Source: Cephalotus follicularis (taxonomy: Eukaryota > Streptophyta > Magnoliopsida > Oxalidales > Cephalotaceae). Taken from it: a stretch of 64,000 nucleotides of DNA. The stretch is from positions 62,001-126,000 of the forward strand of contig BDDD01002673.1 of the NCBI GenBank assembly GCA_001972305.1, in the 5' to 3' direction. Shown one piece after another: positions 4,189 to 58,531 of the stretch (the stretch's first letter is position 1; the number at the start of each line of letters is the position of its first letter). The notes beneath the pieces are model-generated. The model had not been told where the DNA came from. It did not search any database and worked only from the letters and a program-made list of their open reading frames with translations. The translations under genes and the position numbers were made by a program.

Positions 4189-7100
4189 CTACCGAGTGAG
4201 TCGATCCAGTACATATAAAACATAAGTCCTACGGTTACCAACAGAAATAAAACCTGAAACAGTACCTGATGCATTAGCAGCCTGATGTGTCGTGATGGCA
4301 ACAACTCGACCTCCTACATTGCGCTGCCCAGCATTCACACCGTTTCCCTTCCTTTCCTTTGCATGAGGATCAGGACAATCTTTCACAAAGTGACCCTTCT
4401 GACCGCATACAAAGCCGGCCCCAATGGCCTTATAGCAAGTTCCCACTGGATGACGTCTACCGCAAGTATCACATCGGGCAATCTGAACATCAGGGTCACC
4501 CCCACCTGCAACTCCCTGGGTCTTCCTTTGATCATTACTAGGCTGTCGTTGTCGTCCTCGGTTATCATTCTTCCTTTGCTACTTGCTATTTCTGACCTTA
4601 CCATGCTGTCCATAATTTTGCCCCTGAGAATCTCCCCAATTTCTCTTCTTTTCACTATCATGCCGAGCTGCTTGGAAGTCTAACCTCTCCATTTCTATAT
4701 TCTTCACCGCATTGGCAACTTCGGACACATCAGCAAATCTAGCATTGATCAGCTTACCCCTAAGCTGATAGTGAAACTTCCATTTAAATTTCTCAGCTTA
4801 TTCCAGTGATGTTCCCGCCACGGACCCAACAAAACTAGCTAGTCTGGTGAAACGTGCCAAGAACTCCGTAACTGATTTTCCATCCTTCTATCTTGTGTCC
4901 CTTGCATAGGCCTCCTTATTAGCAGCGGGAAAATACTGCTCATAGAAGACTTCACAGAACTCTGACCATGTCAAAGCATCAATATAGTCTCCACCCTTAG
5001 CCAGTCTCAAAGTTTTCCACAACTTTTGAGCATCACCTTCAAGCTTGTAATGTAATACCCTGCTTGTTCGTAAGTGTTCTTACGGACTTTTTATGTAATT
5101 GATTTCGGCCTTTTTAATTTTGTTAATTTTAAAGTCCGGTTGCCCTATGTTTTGGGCTTATGTGATTTGGGCTGACTGATACCAGCCTAAATTTTTGGTT
5201 GTGATAATGCAATGTTGGGTTTGGGTTTTTATTTTACCTAATTCAAAATTTTATTTTACTAAAACAATTATTTTTAAAACCTTTTCTTTTCTTTTCTTTT
5301 ATTACATTTCTTTTAATTCTTTTCTTTTTCCTTATTTTCTTTTCTTTTCTTTCTTTTTCTTTTCTTTCCTTTTCTCCCTCTCTTTCCCGTAATCCTCTCC
5401 CTCCCCTCATCAAATTCACACGGTGCAATCTCCTTTTTCCTTTCTCATTTCCTGAAATCCTCTGTTCTTCCTTCTTGGTCAGATTTTGTCTCTCTTTTTC
5501 CTTATGGTGAGAGACATTGCCTTTTATATGTGTCTTCCTCTTTTCTGCAAGTTTCAATGTCGATTCTGCTTTGTGAAGCCTGTGTAATCTGCTGTGAAAT
5601 CGTTTCCTCAATTTTAAAGAGGTAATATCAATCCTTTGATTGCTCTTATGGGTTGAATTCCTTTAGTTTGTTAAGGATGTTTATGTGTCCCCTTGTTTTC
5701 TTTTCTTTGTTCCTGCAAACAGTCGTGTGACCAGTGAATTTGTGGTATTCTTGCTGTGTTTTCTGTGTTCTGGATAATTATTGCAGGTTAGTAATCTCAC
5801 GGTAATGATTTGTTTCACTTGTCTTTTGGTTTTGTTGTACTGTTCTTAGTGTTCTTTAAGTTTTGATTTCCTGCATATAAACATGTTCGGTCATGGTGTT
5901 AGTAAGTCTGTCAACATGTTTTATACACTCTAGACATGTCATAATCTGATTTTAAATATCTGCAAGTGATAATGGATGGAATTTGGACTTGAACATATGA
6001 ATATGCTTAGAGAGTTATTTCTTTCTCTTGAAGTTAGGCCACTGCCTAATTGTTTCCCTGTCAATTATGTGTTTCTGTATCATTTAAATGTCATATAGGG
6101 TCATATGTTTATGTTCTTGTGTCTCTGGTTTAATGTCATTTTCGTTTAAACCGGTACGGATTTCTATCGTTCCTTGGCTATCTGATTATCGAACTAAAAT
6201 TCAGTTTTGTTCTATGTTCTCGTTTTATAGACTTGTTTATGTTTTATGGTATGTTTCGGAAATAAAGTTGGTTTTTGACATTTTTATGAATTTAAATGTC
6301 CCTGACTTTAATTTTTATGCTAAGATACGTTACGATATGATCATCTCTTTATCACGAAATATAAATGAGATGATGTTTTGACTATGAAATGTATGTTATG
6401 ATACCGTTGTGAACGATATTTAAATATGTTGTGTGAAAGGATATTTATGTGTTTTTAAATTGATTTTGATAAATCAATGTTTTCGAAATGATTGAATACT
6501 GAGTATTGTACACACCTATAAGGTGTACCATAGGCATGTCGTAGGCTTGGCACGAGCACATGACACTTCAGTAGCGGTGTGATTAGTCTACGGCGTCTCT
6601 GAATGTTATGAATAAATCCCATGAGGTGGATTTATGGATCCATTATGTGAAAGAGGCGTATGCATTGATTCTAGTATATGATATGTGATATGTGAGAATT
6701 GACTTGTGTGGTGCCGTACACTTCAATTCTAGTGGGCATGTGGAATTAGCGCCTCCCTTGCCAAAATATATGTTATGTGATATGTATGTGGCTCAGTATA
6801 ACTTATGAATCGTGATATGATGTTTTGTAAATGTTTCGAAAGTTATATGGATTTTATGAAAGTACAAATGTGACTTTACGAATGTTTGATTGTTTTTAAT
6901 TGCTTAAGATTTCTGTTATGAATTTTATTGAAATCTTACTGATTTTAAACTTATCGTTTACTGTTTTCTTTCCTTATCTGTACTGAGGTTTGCTCAGCCG
7001 CGTTTTTGTTTTCCATGCAGAAGGTTATCAGGAGCAGTGGGGGAATGTGTGAACGAGAGATGACTACCTTATATTTTGGATCCCTAGGAGCGTGATCCCA

Positions 7101-7883: not shown

Positions 7884-10617
7884 GGTAACACCCTGAACGG
7901 TGAGAGCCATTACAGGTCATAATACAGAACCTAACATAACATATCTTAACTAAAAATATGCATAAATTTATTTCCAAAAAACATAGTGGTCAAAACATAA
8001 CATATTCTGATAACATAACTAAACTAAACATAGTCCGAAATCTTAAACATAAACCATAAGTCAAATACGGAATTCATAAACCAAAATAACTTATTGTTCA
8101 TAGACTAGCTCTAACAGAAACATAGTAGGATCACATTCCTAAATGATCCTCTGACATAAGGGAGACTTATCTCATCACACATTGCCCCTTTGCTCCTGAT
8201 AACCTGCCGCATGGAAACAAAAACGCAGCTGAGCAAACCTCAATACAAATATATAATGTAAAAATAGTTAACGATTCTTTATAAACAGTAAGATTTCAAT
8301 AGTTACTTCAAAACAGAAATCTTAAACAATAATAAGTTTAAACATTCTTTAGAAATTGCCTTAGCATTTTTGTATAAGCCAAATCCATAACTTTCAAAAG
8401 CATAAGCATACCTTTCAAAACATAAATTCCATACTGAGCCACATAACATATCACATATCATAACACATATAGCAAGGGAGGGACTAATTCCACATGCTAA
8501 GTAGAATTGAAGTGTACGACACTACACAAGTCAATTCTCATATCATATCACATATCCTATCACATATGTCATATCATATACTAAGATCGATGCATACGCC
8601 TCTATCATTAAGAACGGATCCATAATCCTCCTCATGGGATTATCATAACATAGAGAGACATCGTAGACTAATCACACCGCTACGGAAGTGTCATGTCCCC
8701 GTGCCAGGCCTACGACATGCCTATGGTACGTCACAATAGGTGGGTACAAAAACTCATTATTTCACCATTTTGAAAATATTGACTTTTCTCATAATTAATT
8801 TAAAACACATAGAAATGGTTTTTCCAAAACATATCCATAAACCGTTATCAAACGATATAAACACATACTTTCATAACGGGAAAATCAACTCATTTAATCT
8901 CACAATAAAAGAGATGATTTCATAACATTTCGTAAACATATCATAACTGAATTCATAAAGTCAAAATATTTATCCCATAAAATATCAAGTGACTTTATTT
9001 TCAAAACATATCAAGGAATGAACATCCATTCATAAAACGGAATTGAATTTATCGAAGAGTGAGTCAAAGAGCAAAAAATATCCGTACCTTATGCGATCAC
9101 AGAATATAACTTACGAAATGATTGATAAAATCTAACTGCCCCTCGTAGCACAAAAATCTAAAAGACACACAAAACCATTCATATAAGGATTTGAAAAACA
9201 TTGTCGACATAAATCAGAATTATTACGGTGTTTAAAACAGTCCCCGATTCATCAGAAGAACAACGGATAAGAGAACTCGAAAACATAAATTTCCTGGACA
9301 AACTAGACTACTGTTACAGAGCTCTAGTTGACTCTTGGAAGCTTGGCAGTCAACAATCCAATAGGGCCAGCCGACTACACAAACTGGATTGCAGCCAGTC
9401 CACTAAGTCCACTATGACAGGGGTCCAGTCGACTATGCAAGACATATCAGCTGACTGATCATACAGACATCCGACTACTCAAAGCAAAACAGTCGACTGT
9501 CCAGGAGAATAGCCGACTTTTCTGGATGACAGAACAGCAAAATTCTAACAATCCTATGCAGAAATCTGTCAAAACCTGAATAACATGATACCACAGGACT
9601 ATAACCATGTACATGAGACATTTTATGGTATTAAAACATTGAAAGAACACTGAATTCATGAGGAAGTACAAAGACAATGTTTAAGCTTTGAAAAGATAGA
9701 TGATTGCTAATCGCATGCATACATATTTATAGTCCAATTTTCTGTCAAATGCCATTTACGGTTATCAAAACCAGTATGTAACTTATATATGATGCCTAAT
9801 ATTAACATATTAGAGACAAAATAAGGTGCAAAGTGGCAGGGGGCAAAATCAAAGCTCTAAAAGCCTAAACAACATAGAATCCGATTCATAACAAAATAGA
9901 ATAAACCATCACAGCAAGATAGGATAACCAACCTGTAATGGCGACACAAAACCGTTGAATAAACACGACAATTCGTCTGGGCTTAGAAGGACAAAAGAAA
10001 AGAAGGAGGAAAAACAAACACAAGGATTCTAAGTCTACCAAGGTTATACATATCTAAAACCAAAAGAATTCTAAACTAAACCATAGGAAACAAAACTGAT
10101 GTTGATGAAGAAATCGTACAGAGAACAAAACAGATTCCCAACTTGGCAAATTCGGTTGTGACCACACAAGTGATGAAGGATGACATAAAACAATGGACAA
10201 TGGCACTCTTAAACGGAAAAGAGAGACCAAATCGGCTGAGTTAAGGAAAAGGGAGGATTTTAGGGAGAAGAAAATGGGAAAGATGGAGAAAACGTGTGAG
10301 GGAGTTAAGAGAGGGAGAGATTTATGGGGAAGGGATAGAGATTGGAGAGAGAGACTCTGGTGAGAGAGAAAAGAGAGAAAAGAATTTAAAATAAAATAAA
10401 AGATTTGATTTTTAATAAAATTAAATTAATAAAACTGATTTTTTAAAAGAAATGACATAAAGACAAACCTTACCCATACACATTCACATACTAACATACC
10501 CAAAGTGAAGGCTGGTATCAGTCAGCCTAATACATAACCCGACATAAAGTAAAGAGGGTACATAACAAAACAGATTAAAAGTCCAAAAATATGCACACGG
10601 ACAAATAGGGTATTACA
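7884..10617 (-). mobile_element. 5' LTR of element J
   Basis: On the minus strand the LTR begins TGTAATACCCTATTTG at 10617 and ends near 7884 in a terminus similar to GGGTGTTACA. A tRNA-type primer site and the gag start follow. It carries the family's conserved blocks: the acceptor-like box at 8201-8248, the paired stems CATGTC/GACATG at 8692-8719, a GTCGAC-rich zone at 9325-9500, and GACTGATACCAGCC near the start (about 10505-10530). There is no coding function in these 2.7 kb; short open frames inside it are spurious. Confidence 0.85.
9325..9545. repeat. GTCGAC-type repeat cluster in J LTR
   Basis: Words such as CAGTCGACTGT, CCAGTCGACTA and GCCGACTAC recur every 20-40 bases, followed by CAGAACAGCAAAA. 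The same cluster, in the same LTR position, occurs in C (15440-15600 and 18400-18590) and D (57205-57395). Confidence 0.75.
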
Positions 10618-13086: not shown

Positions 13087-15931
13087 TGTAACACCCCCTG
13101 AACGGCGGGAGTCGTTACGGTTCCTAATCCGAGACTAAGCATAACCGATCTCATAACATGGCTCAATTTTATTCTTCTTATCAAATTATTAACTTAGCAT
13201 GTATTCTTATTTAACTATAAATCATGGTTCGCCTTTATTCTTACTATCAAATTATTAACTCATCTTTAAATCAAATTGCGTGATGGTCTAAATGTAACAA
13301 TTATAATCTAATAATGGTCTAGCAACTTTATTCCAAAATCTAAAAACATGGTCTAAAACTTTATTCATAATACGAAACTTAAACATAAACCCAAGCTTAA
13401 ACATAATTCAAAGTCATAAACAAAAAGACATAACATAGTTCGAATAGGGGTCCTAACATGACCATAAAAATAACTAAGCAAAAAAGAGTCCATCTCCTAA
13501 GTAATCCTTATCATAGGTGACATCACGCTCATCACACATTGCCCGGATGCTATCCCATAGTACCTGCCGCATGGAAACAAAAACACGGCTGAGCAAACCT
13601 CAGTACGGATATAGAATCATAAAATATAAAACGATAATTTATGAGATAGAAAAATACCTGAATCTTTAAATATCATATACTTTAAGCATAAAAATAAATT
13701 ACCATTATTTTCAAAAAGAGTGAAGGTAAGTAGTCATACAATCAATTCGAAACGAGTATCTAATTTTCAAAGCGTTATTCAATTTTAAAAACATAAGCTA
13801 AGTTTAAAATTCCAAAACATATTCAAAACGAAAAACAAATAAACATAGACTTATCCGATTCCGATATCTCATTACCGAGATCGAAAGCGCATACACATAT
13901 GCGAAGTTGCAAGGGGTTTGCAAGGCCCACATGCCAAACGGAAAGACGCGTACGGCACTACACAGTCAATCCCCAAAATCCAAATCCTTAACATATAAAA
14001 AACTAGAGTATACCCATACTCCTCTATCACAAAATCGGATCCATAAATCCACCTCATGGGATTTATTCAAAACAAAGAGAGACGTCGTAGTCGAATCACA
14101 CTGCTACGGAAGTGTCACGTCCCCGTGCCAGGCCCACGACGTGCCTATGGTACCTCCATAGGTAGGAAATATCTCTGTGTATGTCCTTATATCAAAAACA
14201 TTGTTTTATTTCTAAAAACAATTTAAAAAACGTAAACACATTTTCTAAACATTTTCTGGACATAACAAAATCATTACATAACATTAACTCATTTATTTTC
14301 AACTATAAAGATATGATCGTATCATATTTCTTAAGACATCATAGCATAAAAAAAAGAACATTAAATTCTCAAAATGTCAACTGACTTTTATTTTCAAAAT
14401 CGTATCGAATCATAAAACATGCTCAAGTTCATAAAAATATAAGATTGAATTTATTCTAATAAAATCAGGGGACGATAATCAAAGAACAAAAGCATCCGTA
14501 CTAAAAACATGTTTGAATTCATTTTAGTAAAACCGAAGGAATAAGCCAAGAACGAAGAATCCGTATGTTATTCAAAAAGTAAAACTATATTTTTATTTAC
14601 TACAGTAAAACCAATAGGAGGGTATCAAGAAACGAAGATCCGTACGTTATTCTTAAAAATAATATACTGAATTTATTCAGATAAAACCAGGGAAAGATAG
14701 CCAAAGAATGAAAGCATCCGTACGTTATCCATAATGTAAAACTACATTCTTTTTATCATAATAAAAACAGTAGGAGGGTATCAAGGAACGAAACATCCGT
14801 ACAAAAATATATTTTAATTCATTTCAGTAAAACCGAAGGAGTAAGCCAAGAACGAAGAATCGATACATTTTCATAAAAACATATAACTAATTTATTTTTA
14901 TAAAATCACCGGAGGGTATCAAGAAACGTAGATCCGTACTTTAATCATAAAAAGTGAAACGGGACAGTTTCAATAAAATCGGATAGCCAAAGAAAATCCG
15001 TACGTTATTCATAAAAATATAAAACTGAATTTATTCAGATAAAACCGAAGGAGATATCGACGAACGAAAAAGCCGTACGTTATTCATAAAGTAAAATTAT
15101 ATTTTTATTTACTACAGTAAAACAGATAGGAGGGTATCAAGAAACGAAAAATCCGTACGAAAACATATTTTAATTCAATTCAGTAAGACCGAAGGAATAA
15201 GCCAAAGAGCAGAAAATCCGTACCTTAAGCGATCACAACAAAGATAGATGAATTGATCAACAATTTTAAAAGTCCCTCTAAGCACAAAAAATCTAAAAGA
15301 CGCAATATCATTCATATAAGCATTCAAATATCACTTCCAAACATCAAACAGTAACTTAATAGTGTTTAAAACAGACTCTAAATCATTAGACGGACAAACG
15401 GATTACAAAACTTAAAACCAAAAAATTCACTGGACAATTTCAGTCGACTGTGACACAATCCAGTCGACTACTCAAGGGTTGCAGTCGACTGTGCTGCATA
15501 GGCAGCCGACTACTCAACTGGGTATGAATCCAGTCGACTATTCAATGGGTGGCAGTCGAATGTTTCGAGAGGCAGTCGACTGTTCTGGGCGACAGAACAG
15601 CAAAAACATAGCAGTTCAATTCCAATTTTCTGTCAAAACCGTTTTTGCTACATTACCAGATGATTTTAAACACTTGCCTAGGTCTTATATGACTTAAAAG
15701 TTGTATTTAAACATCCTGAATAAAAAGGTTCATGCATTTGGTGATCACACTTTTAAAAAGAAGCAAGTTCCAATTCTTTATATGCATAACTATGTGATCA
15801 ATTTCTATCATATACCAATTTCTAGTTTCACAATCTGTTTATAACCATTACTAGACACCTCAGGGCTTGCTAACAATCTCAGAAACATCAACCAAACGTA
15901 CATGGCAGGGATTAATAAGAATACAAACACG
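13087..15931 (-). mobile_element. Element C 3' LTR, partial
   Basis: It matches 16040-18910 almost base for base, from TGTAACACCCC through the acceptor-like box (13561-13610), the hairpin run (14098-14162), the tandem array (about 14430-15225) and the GTCGAC cluster (15440-15600). The match stops near 15931, after which leader sequence of the element follows. Confidence 0.88.
14430..15225. repeat. Tandem array in C 3' LTR, about 11 degenerate units
   Basis: Units of 60-90 bp each contain a word like AAGAACGAAGAATCCGTAC and a TAAAACCGAAGGA-type word. The ATCCGTAC word, exact or with one or two changes, recurs near 14494, 14562, 14636, 14727, 14806, 14869, 14936, 14996, 15070, 15152 and 15218. 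The variable unit length and spread of differences suggest old duplication followed by drift. Confidence 0.8.
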
Positions 15932-16039
15932 TTAGAAAGATCACAATAGAATATCCTAACCCAAGGTCTACCCAATCTCACAGGTCAAACCTAGACAGGT
16001 CTTCTAAGGAAAGCAAAACCTATTCTCTGATACCATTTC
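15932..16039 (-). other. Interior remnant of C with primer-binding site
   Basis: This short piece matches the gag-proximal leader of J and D (TCTACCCAATCTCACAGGTC is shared). It contains TGGTATCAGAG on the minus strand at 16025-16035, complementary to initiator-Met tRNA, four bases from the LTR. It proves the orientation of C. Confidence 0.85.
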
Positions 16040-19000
16040 TGTAACACCCCCCGAACGGCGGGAGTCGTCACGGTTCCTAATCTGAGACTAAACATAACCT
16101 ATCTTATAACATGGCTCAATTTTATTCTTTTTATCAAATTATTAACTTAGCATGTATTATTATTTAATTATAAATCATGGTTCGCCTTTATTCTTACTAT
16201 CAAATTATTAACTCATCTTTAAATCAAATTGCGTGATGGTCTAAACGTAACAATTATAATCTAATAATGGTCTAGCAACTTTATTCCAAAATCTAAAAAC
16301 ATGGTCTAAAACTTTATTCATAATACGAAACTTAAACATAAACCCAAAATTAAACATAATTCAAAGTCATAAACAAAAAGACATAACATAGTTCGAATAG
16401 GGGTCCTAACATGACCATAAAAATAACTAAGCAAAAAAGAGTCCATCTCCTAAGTAATCCTTATCATAGGTGACATCACGCTCATCACACATTGCCCGGA
16501 TGATATCCCATAGTACCTGCCGCATGGAAACAAAAACACGGCTGAGCAAACCTCAGTACGGATATAGAATCATAAAACATAAAACGATAATTTATGAGAT
16601 AGAAAAATACCTGAATCTTTAAATATCATATACTTTAAGCATAAAAATAAATTAACATTATTTTCAAAAAGAGTGAAGGTAAGTAGACATACAATCAATT
16701 CGAAACGAGTATCTAATTTTCAAAGCGTTATTCAATTTTAAAAACATAAGCTAAGTTTAAAATTCCAAAACATATTCAAAACGAAAAACAAAAAAACAAA
16801 GACTTATCCGATTCCGATATCTCATTACCGAGATCCAAAGCGCATACACATATGCGAAGTTGCAAGGGGTTTGCAAGGCCCACATGCCAAACGGAAAGAC
16901 GCGTACGGCACTACACAGTCAATCCCCAAAATCCAAACCCTTAACATATCAAAAACTAGAGTATACCCATACGCCTCTATCACAAAATCGGATCCATAAA
17001 TCCACCTCATGGGATTTATTCAAAACAAAGAGAGACGCCGTAGTCGAATCACACTGCTACGGAAGTGTCACGTCCCCGTGCTAGGCCCACGACGTGCCTA
17101 TGGTACCTCCATAGGTAGGAAATATCTCTGTGTATGTCCTTATTTCAAAAACATTGTTTTATTTCTAAAAACAATTTAAAAAACGTAAACACATTTTCTA
17201 AACATTTTCTGGACATAACAAAATCATTACATAACATTAACTCATTTATTTTCAACTATGAAAATATGATCGTATCATATTTCTTAAGACCTCATAGCAT
17301 AAAAAAAAATAAAGTCAAGAACATTAAATTCTCAAAATGTCAACCGACTTTTATTTTCAAAATCTTATCGAATCATAAAACATGGTCAAGTTCATAAATA
17401 TATAAGACTGAATTTATTCTAATAAAATCAGGGGACGATAATCAAAGAACAAAAGCATCCGTACTAAAAACATGTTTGAATTCATTTTAGTAAAACCGAA
17501 GGAATAAGCCAAGAACGAAGAATCCGTACGTTATTCATAAAGTAAAACTATATTTTTATTAACTACAGTAAAACCAATAGGAGGGTATCAAGAAACGAAG
17601 ATCCGTACGTTATTCTTAAAAATAATAAACTGAATTTATTTAGATAAAACCAGGGAAAGATAGCCAAGGAATGAAAGCATCCGTACGTTATCCATAATGT
17701 AAAACTACATTCTTTTTATCATAATAAAAACAGTAGGAGGGTATCAAGGAACGAAACATCCGTACAAAAAAATATTTTAATTCAATTCAGTAAAACCAAA
17801 GGAGTAAGCCAAGAACGAAGAATCGATACATTTTCATAAAAACATATAACTAATTTATTTTTATAAAATCACCAGAGGGTATCAAGAAAAGTAGATCCGT
17901 ACTTTAATCATAAAAAGTGAAACGGGACAGTTTCAATAAAATCGGATAGCCAAAGAAAATCCGTACGTTATTCATAAAAATATAAAACTAAAATTATTCA
18001 GATAAAACCGAAGGAGATATCGACGAACAAAAAAACCGTACGTTATTCATAAAGTAAAAATATATTTTTATTTACTACAGTAAAACAAATAGGAGGGTAT
18101 CAAGAAAAGAAAAATCCGTACGAAAACATATTTTAATTCATTTCAGTAAGACCAAAGGAATAAGACAAAGAGCAGAAAATCCGTACCTTAAGCGATCACA
18201 ACAAAGATAGATGAATTGATCAACAATTTTAAAAGTCCCTCGAAGTACAAAAAATCTAAAAGACGCAATATCATTCATATAAGCATTCAAATATCACTTC
18301 CAAACATCAAACAGTAACTTAATAGTGTTTAAAACAGACTCTAAATCATTAGACGGACAAACGGATTACAAAACTTAAAACCAAAAAATTCACTGGACAA
18401 TTTCAGTCGACTGTGACACAATCCAGTCGACTACTCAAGGGTGGCAGTCGACTGTGCTGCATAGGCAGCCGACTACTCAACTGGGTACGAATCCAGTCAA
18501 CTGTTCAATGGGTGGCAGTCGACTGTGCAAGGCAAAACAGTCGACTGTTTCGAGAGGCAGTCGACTGTTCTGGGCGACAGAACAGCAAAAACATAGCAGT
18601 TCAATTCTAATTTTCTGTCAAAACCGTTTTTACTACATTACCAGATGATTTTAAACACTTACCTAGGTCTTATATGACTTAAAAGTTGTATTTAAACATC
18701 CTGAATAAAAAGGTTCATGCAATTGGTGATCACACTTTTAAAAAGAAGCAAGTTCCAATTCTTTATATGCATAACTATGTGATCAATTTCTGTCATATAC
18801 CAATTTCTAGGTTCACAATCTGTTTATAACCATTACTAGACACCTCAGGGCTTGCTAACAATCTCAGAAACATCAACCAAACGTACATGGCAGGGATTAA
18901 TAAGAATACGCACTAGCAACCTATATGAACATGAATTGGATATTATAAACGAAAATTCAATGCTAAACCATATCAATAGAGTAAAACAAACCTGGTATGA

Positions 19001-48404: not shown

Positions 48405-50981
48405 TGTAACACCCCCGATGGTGGGAGCCCTTACAGGTCATAATACCAAACTGAAACATAAAGGAAATCTAAACAAAAGACTGATACGAAACGGATGTGG
48501 TGGTCTGAAAGCATATCTTATAACAAACTGATATAAAACGGAGTCTGAAAATTATCCAATCATAAATAAAACCGAATCATAATCCGATATCCAAATACTA
48601 AAATCATAACCGAAACAAAACCAAAATATGAAAATGTTTTTACTGAAAACTAATCTGATCCTACTGGAAAACACAAGGACCAAGTCCTAGATGATCCTCT
48701 GACAATTGGGTAACTCTCATCACACGTTTCCCCCATGCTCCTGAAAACCTGCCGCATAGAAACAAAAACGCAGCTGAGCAAACATAAGTACGGATAAGGA
48801 ATTAAAACAATAAACGGTAAACAAAATATCTTGAACCTAAAACATAGTAAATATTCTTTAAAATGTAAAGCAGAATATTTAAAAGCGAGCAGTTGTAAAA
48901 TCATCATAACTTTGCGAAAACATAACATCATAATTCAAAACATTATCTGATTTCATAATTCCATAACAGAGAATTTCTAACATACATACATATATAGGTG
49001 CAAGGGGTTCGCGAGGCCCACATGCTCTGACGGAAAAGTCATGTACGGCACTACACAAACAATCCCAAATACTGAATTTCTGAATTTCTGAATTTCTGAA
49101 TTCTGACAATAACTAGAGTATACTCATACGCCTCAAAAGGATCCATATCCTACTCTCAGGATACATATTTAAAAGAGACACCGTAGACCGATCACACCGC
49201 CACGGTAGGTGTCATGTTCTCCGTGCCAAAGAACATGCCTATGATACCTCATAGGTAGGGTTTTTCTATATATGTTATTATGCTAAAACTTTGTTTTATT
49301 CTAAAACAGTTCTAAAATGTACTTATGTAAACTGTCTCCAGACATATCTGAAATTATTTAAAACGAATCATACTTTCATATCATAAATCAAAATCAAAAT
49401 CTGATATGTATCTGAAGTTTAACATACTTCCGAAAGTGGAAGCCATGTCTAAAACAAATAACATACTTTCGATAACAGAAAATATGCTTATTAATAATCA
49501 ATATCCGAAGTAACAATGTTAAAATCCATTTCAGTAAGATTATTATCAAAATGAGAATATCCGTAACAAAATACAAGTTTTATCTGTAATAAAACCAGGG
49601 ACATAATCCGTTAAATAAAACATACAAAATCATCAATTAATGAAAATTCAATCGAAGGAGTACCAAAGAACGAAAAATCCGTACCTTGGCTGATCGAAAA
49701 ATGTAAACAAACACGAATACCGGACAAAAGTATCCTAGAGTGTCCTAAACTTCACCAGGAACGATATAAAGACCTAAACATATGAGTCCAAACATCACAT
49801 AACATAAAAAGATCAAAACATCAAAACTGCCATAAAGCGTCGATAGTTTGTTCTTAGGCGTCGACGGTTTAATCGCACAAAAGGACAAAGCGTCAAGCCA
49901 AGAGTCGACTGACCAAAGCACAAAAAGATACAAAGCGGCGATGCTCAAATACTAAACGTCGACGGTTTGCGTCACACACAGAATACCAATGCAGAAAGTA
50001 GTTTCAATTCCATGAACAATTCGGATTTTTCTCATATTCAGAAGTTATAATAGCAATATCCAAACTTAAAAACATGTCATATGAGTCTGTAATTATCAAT
50101 ATGGTGATTATAAACACGAAATCATGAAAATAACAAGTTTAGCATAGTGTGTTCATGTCAAAATATGGTTTTAAAATAGCTTACAAAATCATGAACTATA
50201 ATCTGATTTTTTCTGTGTATAATCCGTAAAACAGTCATATATATATACATACATACGTCAATGACATGATTTCTTGTTTTTAATCATCAATATTACAAAT
50301 TATGCACAAAACCCATGAACACATATTAGCAAAAATTTAGTTTCAACAGGCTTCTAAAAACATGATCGAAATCGAATTATAGTCAGTTTTAATACAAACT
50401 AAAAGATGATATAGAAACTACATAGTACATACTACAACTTTCGTTTAGAAATTACCTCCAGAAAACATCGAAATCAATGTAGAAAATGGCTTGCAAAGTC
50501 GTTGTTTGTTTGTAAAAACGCAGATAGGGTTTATGCTTTAAAAACGATTTTGTCTGGTTAAATGCGAAAATCCATGTTTTTAATTGACAAATCAGTATTT
50601 TAAGACATTACTATACTAACCAAACGCGTCAAAAACTTAAGGAAATTGGATAGCCAGAAAAAGGAAAGAATCCAACCTTCCAAAAACACTGTCACCGTCC
50701 AAACTGGTATGGAAAGCCGACCAAAGCGTCAACTGTTTACTTAAAGCGTCGACTGTTAAGCACTTAAATACAAAACGCGTCGAAGTCATACGTTTAGGCA
50801 TCGACGTGCCACACAGTAGCCAAAGCGTCGGTGGTTCTAATAAGGGCGTCGACGCTTTGTGCCCAGAAAACAAAAATAAAAGAATTTCAAGCAAAGAATC
50901 AAAGCGTTCACAAACCATAGCATATATCAAAAAGGTATAGACCAAACATAAAACATGTAAGCATAGAAACGGGATATTACA
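48405..50981 (-). mobile_element. Solo LTR G (Ty3/gypsy), in E leader
   Basis: The 2,577-bp sequence is flanked by a perfect CATAA duplication (48400-48404 and 50982-50986). On the minus strand it begins TGTAATATCCCG and ends GGGGGTGTTACA. It carries the acceptor-like box (48745-48796), paired stems ACACC/GGTGT (49194-49212), CATGTTCT/AGAACATG (49213-49237) and CCTATGA/TCATAGG (49238-49255), and GTCGAC-type clusters at 49830-49975 and 50720-50865. It belongs to the same broad LTR group as C, D, J and K. Confidence 0.92.
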
Positions 50982-56325: not shown

Positions 56326-58531
56326 TGTAACACCCCCGGACGGCGGGAGTCGTCACAGGGTCATATCATACGTAACATTAACTATCTGAGCATATACATA
56401 TCTTAACAAATCATAAGTTTGCTTTATTAGCCAATAACAGCCGAAAACGTGGCAGTCTTATCAAAACATTAAAACTTAACATTTAACATATTAAGTAGTT
56501 GCGGAAAACTCAAAACATAATTCAGTTCCAATTTAAAACGTAAAACATAAAAATCCATGTTTCTGACCACTAAACATAACATAAGGATCACTCTCCTAAG
56601 GATCCAACATAAAGGGTGATCATCACTCAATCACACTTTCCCCCGCTGCTCCAGAAAACCTGCCGCATGGAAACAAAAACACGGCTGAGCAAACCTCAGT
56701 ACGGATAAGGGAAATAAAACAGTAAGAATCAACTTAAATCACATAAATATGTTTTCACACAACATATTCAAAAACTGCTCACAATAGTATTATAACATAT
56801 CATATCATAACATATCGTATCCTAACATATCGTACCATAACATATCGTATAGATAAAGTCGAAATCAATTAAAATGTCAAACCAACTTTAAATTCGAAAC
56901 GTATCAAAATCATGAAACATCGTTGATTTCATAAATGAAGGTGCTTATCAAAACAGTTTCAGTTTGAATGTCAGCTAGCCAAGGAACAGAAAATCCGTAC
57001 CTTATGCGCTTGCAAAGTACTTACGAATAGGCGATCAAAAACAAATTCTCCTTTGAAGCACACAATCTAAAAGGCATTCAAAATCATACATGTAAGAGTC
57101 TAAGACACATCAGAAGCATTAAACAGACTCTTAACAGTGTTTGGAAAATATTCGGATCGATTCGGGGATCAAACGAATCAAAACAGTTGAAAACAGCACA
57201 TTCCAGGGCAAAACAGTCGACTAAAACAGGGCTCCAGTCGACTGGGGAGGCTTGGCAGTCGACTGTTCATATGGTCCAGTCGACTACACAATTAAAAGTG
57301 CAGGCAGTTGACTGTGGTCTTCCCTCCAGTCGAGTACACAACCATTCCAGCCGACTGTCCACAGAGGCAGCCGGCTCTTCTGGGCGACAGAACAGTTGGA
57401 AATCCGACGATTTGCTACTGAAAATGGTTCAAATGGTTTCTACATTAAACTAGAGACATATGGACATAAACATATGATCATATATGACTTGTAGGTGACA
57501 TACAAACACAAATTTGACAAGGAAACAACTTGATAGTGATTTAACTTACAAAAGGAAGTAAGAAGGCAATGCATGTACATGTCCAGATTCTATCTCTAAT
57601 TGATTATAGATGTTATAAAACAAGTTTGTGACACATATATGAGTATAAAACCTGTTTGCAATATCACTAACACAATGACAACACATTTAGACAGGAATCA
57701 AAGACACCAAGAGCACAAAAACTCAAAGTAAGCCATTGAAACAAAACTATCATTAAAGGGGACGAATCTACTAACCTGTAATGACGTTAAGGGCACAGAA
57801 ACTAGCACGAGGAACACAAGCACAAGCACACAATCTGATGTGACAAAAACAGAGGCAAAGAGACCAAAACCAAAAGAAAACCAAAAACAAGGAGAAACTT
57901 AGCAAACTAAACGAATTCAATTCAAAATGACATAAAAAGGATTGAGATTACCTCTATGAATTTGATGAAACAAATACACAGCAGCTTGACAAACACCCAC
58001 AAGGCAGAATTGGTAGTGGCTTGCAAGAAAATGTGGGCAACATATAAAATGGCAAAGGTATTCTAATAAAGAAGAAAGGAGGAGACATGATTTGACAAAA
58101 GGGGGAAGAAAGGAGACTTTTCTAGATTTTGAAATAGGAAAAGAGAGACTTTGCAAGACATTTTGATGGTGGAAGGAAGGATTTACGGGAAAGAAGGAGG
58201 AAGTGGGAGGAAAGTAGGAGAAAGGTGGGAGAAAATGATAAAATAGGAAAAAGGAAAATTAAAGAAATAATAATAAAAGGAATTTAGGGATTTTAAAAAT
58301 AAAAGAATAATAATTTGTTTTTAATTAAAATAATTTTGTATTAAAATAAAATAAATAAAACTCAATCCCAACATAGCATAACATACCCAAAAATTCAGAC
58401 TGGTATCAGTCAGCATTATTCACATAAACCCAAATTGTAGGGCAACCGGACTTTTAAAATTAAACAAAATTAAAAGCCCGAAACACAAATAAATTCCGTA
58501 AAATATATTTACGAACGAGCAGGGTATTACA
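56326..58531 (-). mobile_element. Element D 5' LTR
   Basis: A 2,206-bp LTR beginning TGTAATACCCTGCTCG at 58531 and ending GGGGGTGTTACA at 56326 on the minus strand. It carries the acceptor-like box at 56656-56707, a donor-like site near 57951, a GTCGAC cluster at 57205-57375 and a near-perfect hairpin CTCTTCTG/CAGAACAG at 57375-57395. It does not show the hairpin run seen in C, G and J. Confidence 0.9.

Follow-up and report, generated by a model that had tools for sequence, protein, structure and literature searches.

The window analysed here, a stretch of 64,000 nt of Cephalotus follicularis DNA, is rich in LTR retrotransposons, several of which carry a run of small hairpins in their LTRs. 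In the initial annotation, base changes that keep the stems in three LTR lineages were taken to suggest selection on a folded RNA (or DNA). This raises the questions whether the complementarity is maintained by selection or is a mere by-product of descent, whether it acts in RNA or in DNA, and what it might do for the element.

Host elements and strand

The LTRs C and D (2.84-2.87 kb; 96.6% alike) lie about 115 bp apart and, together with a PBS but without a clear PPT or genes, form an element at 13087-18909 that is reduced to LTR-PBS-LTR (coordinates of all features are given in Table 1). The PBS-like TGGTATCAGAG is found on the minus strand at the start of the C-D spacer, so that the sense strand of the LTR copies C, D, J, G and L is the minus strand and that of K the plus strand. 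The stems had been placed in C, in G (49194-49255) and in J (8692-8719), and all of them are where they were said to be; however, the strand that had been read in these three copies is the antisense one, and the folded strand is the sense (minus) strand. One LTR terminus reads TGTAACACC, the PBS-like sequence follows both LTR D and LTR L, the other LTR end is not cleanly TG, and no clear target duplication was read. On the minus strand at 4228-1502 we found RVP_2 and RVT_1, RNase H and Integrase_H2C2 in this order, and the element of copy L contains Retrotrans_gag followed by RVT_1. This domain order is that of Ty3/gypsy-type elements; it was read in the neighboring elements and in L, and C/D has no coding region. 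Testing for a chromovirus, we detected SH3_Tf2-1, and a chromodomain was absent from the ORFs scanned.

The upstream part of both LTRs C and D (~14410-15205 and 17370-18168) holds diverged tandem repeats of ~40-120 nt, several of them with CCGTACGTTATTC. A TATA box could not be assigned to a fixed upstream place, as TATAWA or TATATAR occurred in no 10-nt bin in >30% of the copies of any lineage, and C's own ATATAAGG fits neither pattern; because these patterns recur at no fixed upstream place, the position of the block in R is putative. Between the C, K, J and G lineages the two 40-base bins of the block have mean pairwise identities of 0.73 and 0.82, among the highest in the 3' half of the LTR. 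The highest-identity bin (0.89) is a second island ~500 nt beyond the block. This strongly conserved stretch, GAGGTTTGCTCAGC..GTTTTTGTTTCCATGCGGCAGG (sense ~2284-2404 of LTR C; window ~13520-13640), resembles a small hairpin with a splice-acceptor-like stretch behind it. When up to 2 mismatches are allowed, the genome contains 17,829 matches to the island (27 for the control).

Table 1. Positions in the window of the LTRs, the hairpin block and its parts
Feature	Position	Strand	Details
LTR C (3' LTR)	13087..15924	-	block at sense 1752-1850 of 2838
LTR D (5' LTR)	16040..18909	-	then, in sense direction, PBS-like TGGTATCAGAG at 16035-16025
Copy C, hairpin S3	14144..14162	-	arms 14156-14162 and 14144-14150; sense CCUAUGG/CCAUAGG
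Copy C, hairpin S2	14116..14143	-	arms 14138-14143 and 14116-14121; sense CACGUC/GACGUG; loop with UGGCACG
Copy C, stem S1	14098..14115	-	arms 14111-14115 and 14098-14102; sense ACACU/AGUGU
Copy C, PK helix	14086..14108	-	CGUAG 14108-14104 (S1 loop)/CUACG 14090-14086; connectors 2, 1 and 7 nt
Copy D, whole block	17028..17126	-	in the 5' LTR partnering C; 98.2% like C over 500 bp
Copy J, block	8652..8747	-	S3 damaged (CCTATTG/CCATAGG)
Copy K, block	6506..6601	+	inverted relative to the other copies
Copy G, block	49172..49265	-	S2 of 8 bp, CAUGUUCU/AGAACAUG; S3 CCUAUGA/UCAUAGG
Copy G, PK	CGUGG 49204-49200/CUACG 49186-49182	-	
Copy L, deletion junction	56725..56727	-	

Anatomy of the block

In sense order the block consists of hairpin S3, hairpin S2, whose loop contains UGGCACG, and stem S1. 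The loop word that had been noted as common to C, G and J, CCGTGCCA, becomes UGGCACGG when reverse-complemented to the sense strand, and the UGGCACG columns are indeed invariant or at least 90% conserved in 55 aligned copies. S1 had been described as a hairpin. The stem is present, but 7 nt past it lies a CUACG complementary to the CGUAG of its loop (13 nt between the two), and as far as can be judged from the sequence S1 is better taken as part of a predicted H-type pseudoknot (PK), in which the 5 bp of S1 are combined with the 5 bp (p2-p6) of the helix between the S1 loop and the downstream stretch. The connector loops measure 2-3, 1 and 7 nt, and of 145 copies all but one (144) have a last loop of exactly 7 nt. 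PK p1 pairs in just 67% of 132 copies and was excluded from the model. The lineages differ in the length of the S1 loop (8 or 9 nt) and over 4 columns of the S2 loop, which argues against a coding cause.

Two further pairings were considered. The one between CCUAC (before S3) and GUAGG (S2 loop) was rejected, since lineage G lacks GUAGG. For a long-range contact of the loop UGGCAC with a downstream GUGCCG island, 55 of the 97 copies were amenable to parsing, and these gave no covariation. By eye, an alternative 9-bp helix between the region of the S2 5' arm (ACGUCGURG) and CUACGRCGU (sense, 14080-14143) could rival S2 and PK in the C and J lineages, not in G. In a single copy (G000:C38:1185367-1185449) the S1 loop carries CUACGG instead of the CCGUAG of the others, resembling an inversion of a few bases.

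Folding energies of the five window copies are mostly ordinary (z-scores: C -0.83, D -1.49, J +0.85, K -2.75, G -2.97). The minimum-energy folds of J and K do not contain the model, and those of C, D and G have the knot helix in place of S1; nested folding cannot hold both.

Copy L had been credited with a hairpin cluster of its own at a similar place. This was not confirmed in that form: in its LTR, which belongs to the same family, sequence matching K 6465 is joined to sequence matching K 6958 and the homologous block is absent, and three short inverted repeats around the junction (56586-56800) are not homologous to the block. A genome-wide search for the junction sequence gave an exact match only at L itself and a single further match, with 3 mismatches (control 3), and the loss is a private deletion rather than the mark of a structure-free lineage. 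An intron as the cause of the deletion was rejected, as the ends are not GT-AG. Away from the place of the block, at 57190-57390, the LTR of L contains repeated AGTCGACTG-like palindromes.

Pairing and compensated changes

For the alignment we chose 55 copies, 54 of them distinct. Of 1,183 cells 98.1% pair, compared to 23.0-47.0% when the partners are slid by 1-3 columns. Among the 54 distinct copies, cells with both sides changed number 31 (10.8 in shuffles; none of 500 shuffles as high), and the covariation score is 0.151, versus 0.107 for shuffled (0/500) and at most 0.088 for slid alignments; the number of further pair types, 14, does not exceed that of the shuffles (13.6). Unaided, RNAalifold found S3, S2 and S1 with 17 pairs, 4 of them with changes on both sides. 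The variable pairs are few. In a table of 145 copies, S2 p3 is U-A in 101, C-G in 40 and otherwise composed in 4 (62, 35 and 3, respectively, among 100 copies sampled by order of contig), S2 p6 is C-G in 79, U.G in 46, U-A in 17 and other in 3, and S1 p5 is divided between U.G (49), U-A (44), C-G (44) and other states (8). Among 143 parsed copies, S3 p7 is G-C in 88, A-U in 39, G.U in 4 and other in 12.

A stricter, Fitch-based null consisted of 150 alignments of 144 columns, simulated on the tree of the 145 copies themselves. S2 p3 alone passes it (E=0.0067), the next best pair having E=7.6. The stem-keeping paired changes that had been read from three copies are real, with S2 p3 standing out against the phylogenetic null and changes at S3 p7 and S2 p6 observed as well. 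Covariation argues only weakly for S1 and S3 when these are taken alone.

We then used a tree built from the flanks only, comprising 94 copies after removal of the doubly fetched window copies L001, L002 and L031 (i.e. C, D and G). On this tree 9 double changes from one Watson-Crick pair to another fall into the structure, whereas random helices have a mean of 0.82 (P=0.0002); before the duplicates were removed the number was also 9 (P=0.00015). S2 accounts for 5 of them (P=0.002), S1 for 2 (P=0.026) and PK p2-p6 for 2 (P=0.025). S3 has none; an alignment gap hides its p7. Rarer variants include copy L090, in which PK p5 is G-C rather than A-U or G.U as elsewhere, and copy L015, with U-A in place of C-G at S1 p4. 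Kept and broken pairs did not differ significantly in their internal versus terminal changes (S1 and S2 together, P=0.44).

Occurrence in the genome and an independent test of the pseudoknot

We searched the genome (1.58 Gb; 9,746 contigs) for the block. With S2 p3 left unspecified in the pattern, 8,113 matches were obtained (30 for the reversed control), and a second pattern with other spacing gave 530 (control 2). In viral contigs the block pattern had no match. Rfam 15 returned no match at the gathering cut-off in the whole window; at E<=10, positions 13800-14400 gave three weak matches far below the cut-offs, one of which, snoR144, overlaps part of the C block, and at E<=1 four loci gave one weak match, outside the block.

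The states of PK pair 6 were counted genome-wide after the knot had been predicted and therefore provide an independent test. The four exact knot-region patterns have 12,905 matches in total: 9,372 for G-C (CGUAG..CUACG; control 28), 3,167 for A-U (CGUAA..UUACG; control 9), 182 for A.C (CGUAA..CUACG; control 0) and 184 for G.U (CGUAG..UUACG; control 2), corresponding to an odds ratio of 886. The doubly changed state is abundant, while the two states with a single change are rare and equal, as expected from decay after insertion without a fixed wobble. The double change itself may have been a single event on one lineage; for the two copies of this state that were read, L083 and L087, we estimate at about 1% the chance of two among their few diagnostic changes falling on a predicted pair.

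Constraint on the block

On the flank tree of 94 copies, the ratio of internal to terminal changes is 0.28 in the block (48/170) and 0.68 in the flanks (1374/2015; Fisher p=2.7e-8). The difference is seen in lineage J (25 copies; block 15/86, flanks 560/958, p=3e-6) and in lineage C (37 copies; 17/63 versus 494/745, p=0.0008), while the 32 copies of lineage G have no extra constraint (19/56 versus 356/903, p=0.69). A pattern with S2 fixed had retrieved 23 of the 25 J copies; such a pattern removes changed copies, which should lower terminal changes more than internal ones. The proposed selection on a folded molecule is supported by the pooled data, with the evidence favoring RNA over DNA, and lineage G gives no signal.

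Origin and function of the fold

We consider it rather likely that the block is a selected sense-strand RNA structure, composed of S3, S2 with its near-fixed UGGCACG loop and the H-type pseudoknot, which is present in the LTRs of a large Ty3/gypsy-type family and acts in cis in the element's own genomic RNA. Could common descent, exchange of haplotypes and conservation of the sequence have produced the pattern on their own, with complementarity as a by-product? Most pairs vary little, a single pair passes the tree-based null, and lineage G is without constraint, as such an origin would have it. In addition, all five double changes of S2 occur at one pair, and site 27, a loop position between the S2 p3 partners that is unpaired with them, co-changes with this pair five times as well; the confinement to one pair and this co-change indicate that haplotype exchange between lineages contributes to the signal. 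However, site 27 is uncoupled from the pair more often than the partners are from each other. S2 p3 is U-A or C-G in 93 of 96 full-length rows, the remaining 3 being broken or wobble. In these 93 rows site 27 matches the pair type 77 times (U-A-A 53, C-G-G 24) and goes against it 15 times (C-A-G 11, U-G-A 4); in one row it is C. The far lower pairing of the slid controls and the PK p6 state with both sides changed, to which no single-side state is comparable in number, also speak against descent as the whole explanation, and we give it the least credence of all the readings discussed here. A feature of the DNA without any RNA fold, either palindromic sites that bind proteins or cruciforms within the promoter of the LTR, would suit the ACGT-type palindrome pair formed by S2 in lineage C and a possible overlap with the promoter. 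Nevertheless, the S2 arms of lineage G (CAUGUUCU/AGAACAUG) still pair without an ACGT word, and a pseudoknot pairing is meaningless in duplex DNA. Wobble cells in S1, S2 and PK p2-p6, counted on the sense strand as copies rather than events, are G.U in 191 and A.C in 34 cases, the frequent ones at S2 p6, S1 p5 and PK p5 all being G.U; this excess favors a sense-strand RNA over DNA palindromes, so that a DNA-level origin appears very improbable to us, if marginally less so than descent alone.

The same structural evidence would also fit an RNA with another task than reverse transcription or packaging, such as 3' end formation, RNA stability (e.g. as an exonuclease block) or translation. H-type knots also occur in elements that act on stability or translation. 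In 24 of 40 copies of the C type and 11 of 23 of the J type, the S3 CATAGG is followed by an AATAAA 80-89 nt downstream; on the other hand, no AATAAA recurs at that place among the 34 G-type copies, and the evidence does not single out such a role, which we regard as a serious though minority possibility. Returning to a cis-acting element of the genomic RNA, this role is suggested by analogy with the Ty1 5' pseudoknot and retroviral leaders. The fold is probably kept by evolution since the element needs it for its own copying. The block would most likely sit in the R region or 5' leader of the transcript, where it could help to initiate reverse transcription or to transfer strands, bind Gag, or decide whether the RNA is translated or packaged; as it lies within the LTR, it may also occur at the 3' end of the RNA. 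We infer any specific role rather than read it from the element. A bolder reading would see a new class of structured retrotransposon RNA, either a two-state switch in which the S2/PK fold and the 9-bp helix compete, thereby apportioning the transcript to translation or packaging, or an RNA with its own binding or catalytic core. It would concern well over ten thousand LTR places in one genome, with two hairpins, an H-type knot and near-fixed unpaired bases; we hold it to be improbable.

Comparison with known systems

What is known of RNA structure in LTR elements comes mainly from the Ty elements of yeast and from retroviruses; for the Ty1 5'-terminal pseudoknot, Huang 2013 is among the works cited. 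Among the top-ranked open papers we found no such structure for plant gypsy LTRs. Gypsy elements fill many large plant genomes, and with many copies and naturally compensated variants at hand their control by RNA can be studied by comparison alone; the natural pair states are ready test material for reverse transcription, packaging and translation.

Like the block, retrozymes place structured RNA within the LTRs of plant elements, theirs being hammerhead ribozymes (PMC4918200), whereas the window contains no hammerhead at the Rfam cut-off and the C block none at E<=10. In retroviruses, the residual conservation of long R regions was linked to stem-loops, a further likeness; models for plant Metaviridae LTRs, however, could not be built, as stated in the part of that study dealing with them (PMC3601003). 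Rice Retrosat2, which also has a long LTR, was assigned an R of 2 kb in the relevant section of PMC3485330. Ty3 shares with the present family the Ty3/gypsy type, a structured genomic RNA and pseudoknots, of which it has two candidates; the corresponding parts of PMC11381356 place these in GAG and POL rather than the LTR and attribute dimerization to a palindrome spanning nt 391-396. Ty1 likewise has a pseudoknot in LTR-retrotransposon RNA, which involves the R region, a likeness drawn from its description (PMC4974528). According to the sections of that source on the knot, a Gag fragment binds there and reverse transcription needs the knot to start efficiently, whereas attempts to demonstrate a role in packaging or encapsidation did not succeed. 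Yet Ty1 is a copia-type element (Pseudoviridae) with a long-range knot of nt 1-7 with 264-270, past the PBS (same sections of PMC4974528), while the structure described here combines a local H-type knot with two hairpins, ~1 kb before the 3' end of the LTR of a Ty3/gypsy-type element.
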